64,000 nt of DNA. Origin: Aphelidium insulamus (lineage: Eukaryota; Aphelidiomycota; Aphelidea; Aphelidiaceae). The DNA is taken from assembly GCA_036784855.1 (NCBI GenBank), contig JAZDSV010000011.1, positions 248,001 to 312,000 on the forward strand, in the 5' to 3' direction. Position 1 is the first letter of the stretch. Every line of letters starts with the position of its first letter. Below, in pieces: positions 19,800 to 20,839 of this stretch. A program made the position numbers and the translations under genes. The notes under the pieces were generated by a model. It searched no databases. It had not been told where the DNA came from and saw only the letters and a program-made list of their open reading frames with translations.

Positions 19800-20021
19800 A
19801 TGTATGCAACGGGGCGGCCAATGCAGCGCCCTTGCAAACAGGCAATGCTTATCGCGGCCAATCAGATGGCGCCACGTGTGGAACGCAAGATTTCCGCCGG
19901 CTTCCACGCGCTAAACTGCTTTCATTCCTCAAAACTGTTTTCTGCGTGCCGGCCAGGTGCCTCTTATTTGCCACCATGCCTGATCGCTTGGATGGCGTCA
20001 GTCCTCTGGCTGAACGGTTAG
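19800..20021 (+). other. Possible overlapping upstream ORF of the bZIP gene
   Basis: An ATG at 19800 opens a 73-codon frame that overlaps the bZIP start (19976) in another frame and stops inside the bZIP first intron. If the transcript begins upstream of 19800, translation of the bZIP protein would be lowered by this uORF. The transcription start is unknown. Confidence 0.3.
19858..19876 (+). promoter_or_regulatory. ERSE-like element CCAAT-N9-CCACG
   Basis: CCAAT at 19858-19862, nine bases, then CCACG at 19872-19876: an exact match to the mammalian endoplasmic-reticulum stress response element, which binds NF-Y and ATF6/XBP1. It lies 100 bp upstream of the start codon of an XBP1/HAC1-like gene. 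A second CCAAT lies at 19818-19822. Confidence 0.5.
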
Positions 20022-20839
20022 CTGTCTGTTGTCTACATGTTTGCCACCGTGTGCTCACTGTGTGCAGACAGCGAAAGAATCGTGAAGCCGCCCAGATATC
20101 GCGGGATCGGAAGCGCAAGCGTATAGCAGGCCTCGAGGAGGAGAACCAACTCCTTCACGATCAGATCGACTCTCTCAGCAAGCGGATGAAACTGCTTGAA
20201 GACCAGAACGCCCTGCTATTCAGCTTTGTGAAGGGGCAGCAGCGTGAACTGGCATCTAATCTCCCATCGGCACCTTCATGTGCCGCAGAGACCCCCGCAC
20301 TCGACACTGGACAATGTGATGACGTGGATAGTGCGCTGAAGGCCGTGTTGGATGTATCTGATTCCATTGATCCTGCCGGCATCTACTCGACGCCGCCACA
20401 CAATACTACTACTGAACCCGACTATGTTGTCGCTGACCCCACGCTTGCGCCCGCCGTGACAGTCGCCGCAGTAGACGTGACTGAAGAATTGCACTCAGCA
20501 GCAGTGCCAATGGCCGTTCTGCCCGCGCAGAATGGTTTCCCGCAGCGATCTTCAGTCTACTCTACGGCGCCATCGACGTCAACCCCGGCTCGGCTGAACT
20601 TGGTGGCTGTGCTTTTGATCCTTACTCGCATCTGCAAGATTCCGACTTCCATCTGGCGTCCGAATTCCACAGTGCTACTGGCGATGTTTTTCCGCTGGTG
20701 CCATGGAATGATGACGGTAGAGCGAATGTCGAGTCTAACTGAAGCCGAGATCATTTGCCTGGCCCGCCAGTTTTCCCTACAACTGCGCTCCGTGCCGTCA
20801 GCTAATACATTACGTGGGCGTCCCGTCAAGCCGCCCTGA
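19976..20839 (+). CDS. XBP1/HAC1-like bZIP transcription factor (unfolded protein response)
   Basis: Start codon in a CCACCATG context at 19976; exon 1 19976-20016, spliceosomal intron 20017-20067 (51 nt), exon 2 from 20068. The basic region RKNREAAQISRDRKRKRI has the N-x7-R of bZIP proteins and the NR-AAQ-RDRK pattern specific to XBP1/HAC1; a leucine zipper follows (GLEEENQLLHDQIDSL, then further Leu heptads). Unspliced, the frame ends at 20839 with a hydrophobic tail (LNLVAVLLILTRIC). Two CNG|CNGN sites at 20498/20499 and 20542/20543 enclose 44 nt (2 mod 3). Removing them gives a 223-residue protein ending at 20742 with an acidic, aromatic tail (FDPYSHLQDSDFHLASEF) typical of an activation domain. 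This matches Ire1-type cytoplasmic splicing. Likely gene names would be HAC1 or XBP1, but orthology is not proven. Confidence 0.82.
   Translation: MPDRLDGVSPLAERLAVCCLHVCHRVLTVCRQRKNREAAQISRDRKRKRIAGLEEENQLLHDQIDSLSKRMKLLEDQNALLFSFVKGQQRELASNLPSAPSCAAETPALDTGQCDDVDSALKAVLDVSDSIDPAGIYSTPPHNTTTEPDYVVADPTLAPAVTVAAVDVTEELHSAAVPMAVLPAQNGFPQRSSVYSTAPSTSTPARLNLVAVLLILTRICKIPTSIWRPNSTVLLAMFFRWCHGMMTVERMSSLTEAEIICLARQFSLQLRSVPSANTLRGRPVKPP
20491..20546 (+). promoter_or_regulatory. Predicted Ire1-type non-spliceosomal intron (20499-20542) with its splice-site loops
   Basis: 5' site: stem GCACT/AGTGC (20491-20495, 20503-20507) presents the 7-nt loop CAGCAGC with cleavage expected after 20498; the stem can be extended by ATT/AAT past one bulged C. 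3' site: CCGCAGC (20540-20546), cleavage after 20542; its stem is weaker. Both loops have C1, G3 and G6, the bases needed by Ire1. The ends are not GT-AG. Confidence 0.6.

Follow-up and report, generated by a model that had tools for sequence, protein, structure and literature searches.

The bZIP gene that begins at 19976 of the window (the whole 64-kb stretch of Aphelidium insulamus DNA analysed here) is very probably an XBP1/HAC1-like switch of the unfolded protein response, predicted to be spliced by Ire1 at an element whose 3' stem has 2 bp and whose match to the Rfam family RF04247 falls below the cut-off. A bZIP domain, IRE1-type loop motifs, a strong fold and a switch of reading frame are all found in its sequence, and genes for IRE1, RTCB and archease are found in the genome; from these features we propose Ire1 cutting, an excision of exactly 44 nt and control by ER stress. 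Under ER stress, IRE1 would cut after G20498 and G20542, an outer helix would hold on to both exons as the 44-nt piece, internal hairpin included, departs, RTCB would ligate the cut ends, and translation would enter an acidic tail to give a 223-aa activator. The unspliced mRNA would encode a 270-aa form instead, whose hydrophobic tail may direct the transcript to the ER membrane, like that of animal XBP1u.

Gene layout and change of reading frame

As read from the sequence, the first coding exon (19976–20016, + strand) starts with an ATG in GCCACCATG context and is followed by a putative conventional GT-AG intron of 51 nt (20017–20067, +), which lies directly 5' of the basic-region coding sequence and whose removal joins LAER to QRKNREAAQ. 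The second coding exon extends to the predicted 5' Ire1 cut (20068–20498, +), is read in frame 2 according to the codon score, and encodes a linker and the bZIP domain (Pfam bZIP_2, 8e-8, and bZIP_1). The basic region had been described as XBP1/HAC1-like, and indeed KNREAAQISRDRKR is identical to human XBP1 (in the form printed in the available text of PMC7564462) at 10/14 positions, compared with 5–8/14 for the other eight bZIP_2 matches of the genome and 7/14 for c-Jun; among the nine bZIP_2 matches it is the closest to XBP1. In the PDB, the closest chains, bZIPs of AP-1 and CREB, score weakly (best E 0.0034), so that the family assignment relies on the basic region together with the RNA element and not on overall similarity. 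The protein is single copy, a search of its own genome returning this locus only, and no orthologue was found in the protein database with either the spliced form (440 candidates, none at E 0.001) or residues 1–78 of the unspliced form (22 candidates, none at E 10). Directly downstream lies a glutamate synthase gene with several exons (window ~21380–27444).

A switch in codon usage, which owes nothing to the loops, provides the strongest evidence. The codon model was built from 16 segments (5108 codons, mostly from ORFs with a family match) and in 636 leave-one-out tests of 198 nt its choice of frame was correct in 95%. Frame 2 scores +36.5 over 20069–20498, and over 20543–20742 frame 1 takes over with +11.2 (frame 2, -2.2; frame 0, -42.2). 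Within the 44 nt between them the scores of frames 2 and 1 both lie slightly above zero (+4.0 and +2.1, respectively), and past the frame-1 stop, at 20743–20839, no frame is positive. Codon usage follows frame 2 up to ~20490–20520 and frame 1 afterwards. Three 99-nt windows, starting at 20669, 20699 and 20729 and extending beyond the frame-1 stop, weakly favour frame 2 (+3.4, +3.2, and +2.0), against this reading. A change-point test gave a log-likelihood ratio (LLR) of 19.6 with the best switch at 20535, within the predicted intron, a value reached by none of 182 overlapping control windows in each direction (maxima of 4.4 for the same and 7.8 for the other). The claim that a functional C-terminus lies in the frame reached by a 2 mod 3 removal between 20498 and 20543 agrees with this pattern. 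Codon usage demonstrates a change of frame and leaves its mechanism aside; cutting, and the loss of exactly 44 nt, are what we infer from the rest of the sequence.

A change of frame could also be brought about by an ordinary spliceosomal intron, and the gene already has one, at 20017–20067. We enumerated GT-AG and GC-AG introns of up to 140 nt that restore the right frame without a stop (donors at 20400–20559, acceptors before 20640) and obtained 15 candidates, only one of them with a GT donor (20535–20638, 104 nt), whose removal would cost the coding stretch 96 bases; the remaining 14 have GC donors with 2–3 of 6 consensus bases, and we regard a spliceosomal origin of the switch as extremely unlikely.

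The region 5' of the gene was examined as well. An exact match to the pattern CCAAT-N9-CCACG, which we take to be the ER-stress response element (ERSE) of animals, lies at 19858–19876 (+), 100 bases before the bZIP ATG. The pattern occurs twice in the 64-kb window (chance mean 0.19) and 36 times genome-wide, against 16 for a reversed-pattern control. A link of ERSE matches to ER genes was not seen in a Pfam scan of 10 ORFs from 10 of 30 ERSE loci, some of these ORFs not being downstream of the motif on the motif's own strand, and near the start of the HDEL-ended Hsp70 gene no ERSE is present, even with two mismatches allowed, a point against the reading proposed here. As a hint of ER-stress control, the site upstream of the bZIP gene is suggestive only. 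The 19-mer CCAATTGTGGCCCACCACG is present four times (loci L037, L038, and L049, and C165:30170–30188), and these copies probably sit inside a dispersed repeat.

The RNA element and its chance expectation

Ire1 needs C1, G3, and G6 in the loops that it cuts, and both sites of the original prediction are present with these bases. At the 5' site (GCACU[CAGCAGC]AGUGC, 20491–20507, +), the loop CAGCAGC at 20496–20502 is carried by a perfect 5-bp stem (20491–20495/20503–20507), with the predicted cut after 20498; the 3' motif is CCGCAGC (20540–20546, +), with the predicted cut after 20542. Cuts after the third loop base of each would take out 20499–20542 (+), the predicted Ire1 intron of 44 nt (2 mod 3), and according to the part of PMC4891664 available to us the stem-loop of IRE1 substrates, with its 7-nt loop, is cut after G3. 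Two second sites with C1, G3, C4, and G6 and the right frame exist within ~90 nt, at 20540 and at 20591, the latter implying a 95-nt intron that would take out part of the coding stretch.

The minimum free energy (MFE) structure adds two elements to the earlier description. Both sites are enclosed by an outer helix of 16 bp (5' arm 20471–20487, 3' arm 20549–20565, both +), composed of 20479–20487/20549–20557, 20477–20478/20559–20560, and 20471–20475/20561–20565, and an 11-bp hairpin (20512–20537, +; 20512–20522/20527–20537) is located inside the predicted intron. The fold of 20470–20565, a stretch picked after the element had been seen, has -40.0 kcal/mol and a z of -5.1, with none of 200 shuffles as stable; calculated with 60 shuffles its z is -4.9, and the minimum of 609 sampled windows (96 nt each, from both strands of the 64-kb window) is -3.74. 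Folding of the RNA, proposed earlier as a check, bore the element out in part: the strong fold encloses both sites, but the 5' hairpin is absent from the MFE structure. Forcing that hairpin costs 2.0 kcal/mol and forcing both hairpins 3.3; in the free ensemble the 5' stem has a pairing probability of 0.05–0.20 and the 3' stem one of 0.01, the latter stem being as poor as had been conceded, with 2 bp only. When forced, the 5' stem can be extended to 8 bp with one bulged C, and in isolation the stability of the 5' hairpin does not stand out from that of its shuffles (z -0.66), and a C1–G6 pair forms inside the loop.

These structures also bear on -1 programmed ribosomal frameshifting, which would make the frame-1 tail without any removal of RNA. 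It would take place at T TTC CCG (20536–20542), the sole XXXYYYZ heptamer of the bZIP frame from 20069 to 20829 and coincident with the inferred switch point at 20535. However, CCC in the second half of a heptamer is not known as an efficient slippery set, the downstream stretch (20547–20626) folds in an ordinary way (z -0.16), and the strong structure begins upstream of the site and encloses it. With frameshifting, moreover, most of the protein would still carry the frame-2 tail, whose coding signal is weak, and the IRE1 loop motifs would be left unpredicted; we consider this mechanism very improbable.

How often such an arrangement appears by chance was estimated by searching for a hairpin with a stem of 5 bp or more and C1, G3, and G6 in its loop, a second site of this kind (with C4 in addition) within ~90 nt and in the right frame, and a stem of 8 bp or longer enclosing the two. 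On both strands of the 64-kb window this full architecture occurs once, as the 20471–20565 element; a search of other loci (147,490 strand-bases, overlaps entering more than once) found no instance, and 12 Markov sequences, each 128 kb long, contained a single one (0.083 per sequence). Some twenty would be expected by chance genome-wide, so the element counts by its location, in a bZIP gene and at the frame switch.

No family reached its gathering score in an Rfam scan of the 64-kb window, and on a 1-kb stretch the Hac1/Xbp1 intron family (RF04247) was the top of 4227 families (20470–20561, 18.1 bits, E 2.8). The alignment spans the whole model, but the 3' hairpin is unmatched and the score is far below the gathering score of 41. 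The genome-wide list (73 of 1876 candidates scored) comes without the bZIP locus and is headed by a match of 23.1 bits at 37413–37471 (-) of the window, followed by one of 18.5 bits. The former lies in CAG (glutamine) codons of an EH-domain-like gene (judged by eye) and is probably due to chance, reflecting how the model behaves in CAG-rich coding DNA; matches to the family at E up to 10, all below the cut-off, also turn up among the prokaryotic control genomes (7 of 14). We rejected the RF04247 match as strong proof because of this higher-scoring match in a glutamine-codon stretch elsewhere in the genome, and for the same reason it is taken as support for the narrow region only; at the bZIP locus it supports, and does not prove, an element of Hac1/Xbp1 type.

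A single-base error or a true frameshift mutation (one base more or less near 20535) in an ordinary bZIP gene, with loops and fold there by chance, would yield an identical frame switch. It would, however, have to coincide with a rare architecture, with a fold that beats 609 sampled windows, with an Rfam match at the same place and with an XBP1-like basic region, a combination that renders it highly unlikely. A less remote variant, although still unlikely, is that IRE1 cuts with a different 3' site, so that the intron is not 44 nt (in this form it is part of the splicing reading favoured here), or that it cuts for decay. The poor 3' stem speaks in favor of another site, as does the RF04247 alignment, which sets the 3' hairpin of the model on the internal hairpin near 20519–20522 with a 21-nt gap. 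Yet the CUGCCCG found there lacks G6 and is buried within a strong stem, whereas CCGCAGC has C1, G3, and G6 and sits at the frame switch.

The two tails and the partner genes

Under the preferred reading, splicing at 20498/20543 would exchange one C-terminus for another. The spliced-frame tail (20543–20742, +) was confirmed to run for 66 codons, junction codon included, to the stop at 20742, and it is as acidic and aromatic as had been claimed, with a net charge of -9 and 10 D/E, 1 K/R, and 8 aromatic residues of 66; 3.3% of control windows are equally acidic. The unspliced-frame tail (20543–20839, +) had been said to end in a hydrophobic segment: hydrophobic segments are there, at 20594–20635 and 20672–20692, but the frame ends at 20839, after RGRPVKPP. 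Its maximum 19-residue hydropathy (1.73) is reached by 1.1% of 713 open shifted control windows, and it stays open across the 66 codons, as do 18% of 4036 overlapping shifted control windows. Human XBP1u has a mildly hydrophobic region, ~52 residues from the arrest site, that brings in SRP during a pause, according to the text available from PMC6624018; in the gene studied here, the first segment has 67 residues after it and the second 48. By analogy, the unspliced tail may act like the XBP1u hydrophobic region.

An IRE1 gene that looks complete is found on the same contig, ~122 kb from the bZIP gene (C12, ~143.2–146.2 kb), with a luminal part and a transmembrane segment (both judged by eye), a kinase and an RNase with RNKKNHY. 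Of 7999 candidates scored, 638 are related to its kinase-RNase region at E 0.001, and the named relatives among the best 120 of these 638 are fungi. A tree built from the query plus 59 of the best 120 matches (60 rows, with 61 matches left out; midpoint root for drawing only) groups it with rows P0003 and P0044, the latter on a long branch, with 99% SH-aLRT, and these three stand apart from the other 57 rows, including every named fungus in the tree. Adjoining IRE1 there is a pair of ORFs (L017 241–1384) with the look of what we take to be a transposase-nuclease of PD-(D/E)XK/Rpn type.

The ligase is also represented. RtcB-like sequences occur in three places (C85:138534–139946, C94:37392–38615, and C129:498311–498937), one animal-type, one divergent and one a partial match, and RTCB scores 459 bits against solved chains that bear the name RNA-splicing ligase RtcB homolog, presumably the human ones, and 352 bits to the PH1602 chain. 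Archease is found at C97:447359–447802 (87.5 bits). In a genome search run without a positive control, the fungal Trl1 parts PF08303 and PF09511 had no match, and neither did PF10036. The organism probably branches deeply, close to where the fungi begin. Among the chaperones, Hsp70 (PF00012) gave 14 matches (L059–L072) in five places, four of them with gene ends that look cytosolic (EEVD), mitochondrial or Hsp110-like or that finish in HDEL, one each, plus a fifth place; BiP was not recognised among these 14 matches, which counts against the reading proposed here.

Comparison with known systems

The IRE1-bZIP branch is described as the most ancient branch of the ER stress response (PMC4891664), and the cases described in the literature excerpts available to us come from animals, plants, and well-studied fungi. 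A broader idea, possible but rather doubtful at present, is that we are looking at an animal-style Ire1 switch on the fungal side of the tree, with an XBP1-like bZIP, an unspliced tail whose hydrophobic segments dock its own message at the ER, and RTCB plus archease instead of Trl1. If it were true, the animal scheme would be ancestral for animals and fungi and the HAC1/Trl1 scheme derived, and a deep near-fungal lineage keeping RTCB would help to show ancestral features. The 44-nt intron, the inner 11-bp hairpin, and the nearly stemless 3' site would then make up a form of substrate absent from the excerpts of HAC1 and XBP1 literature examined, and the gene would offer a natural test of the minimum 3' stem for IRE1.

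Likeness to animal XBP1 is seen in the basic region (10/14), the loop motif, the 2 mod 3 frame change, the hydrophobic unspliced tail, and the presence of RTCB and archease in the genome. The gene differs from it in the length of the predicted intron (44 nt against 26 in XBP1), in the large hairpin inside this intron, in the 2-bp 3' stem, and in the short N-terminus and the conventional intron that precedes the basic region. With fungal HAC1/HacA it shares an Ire1-type element 3' of the bZIP domain and the gain of an acidic tail by the predicted splicing. The RNA ligase in fungi is Trl1, in contrast to the genome studied here, where Trl1 domains were not found by the search without positive control.

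Regarding intron length, the available part of PMC6222058 places HAC1 introns between 19 and 379 nt, with lengths extending to almost 850, and sorts them into classes of <50, 50–500, and >500 nt, and that of PMC3154848 gives 19–29 nt for mammalian XBP1 and some other fungal Ire1 introns; a 44-nt Ire1 intron is not among the lengths in these parts of the two papers, the literature search not having been aimed at every species. The nearest layout is perhaps that of Cryptococcus HXL1, with a 55-nt conventional intron and a 56-nt Ire1 intron (PMC3154848), since both genes have a conventional intron upstream and an Ire1 intron of middle length, predicted in our case, 3' of the bZIP domain. They differ in that Hxl1 is described in the same text as very divergent from Hac1/Xbp1, whereas the basic region of the gene presented here is XBP1-like.
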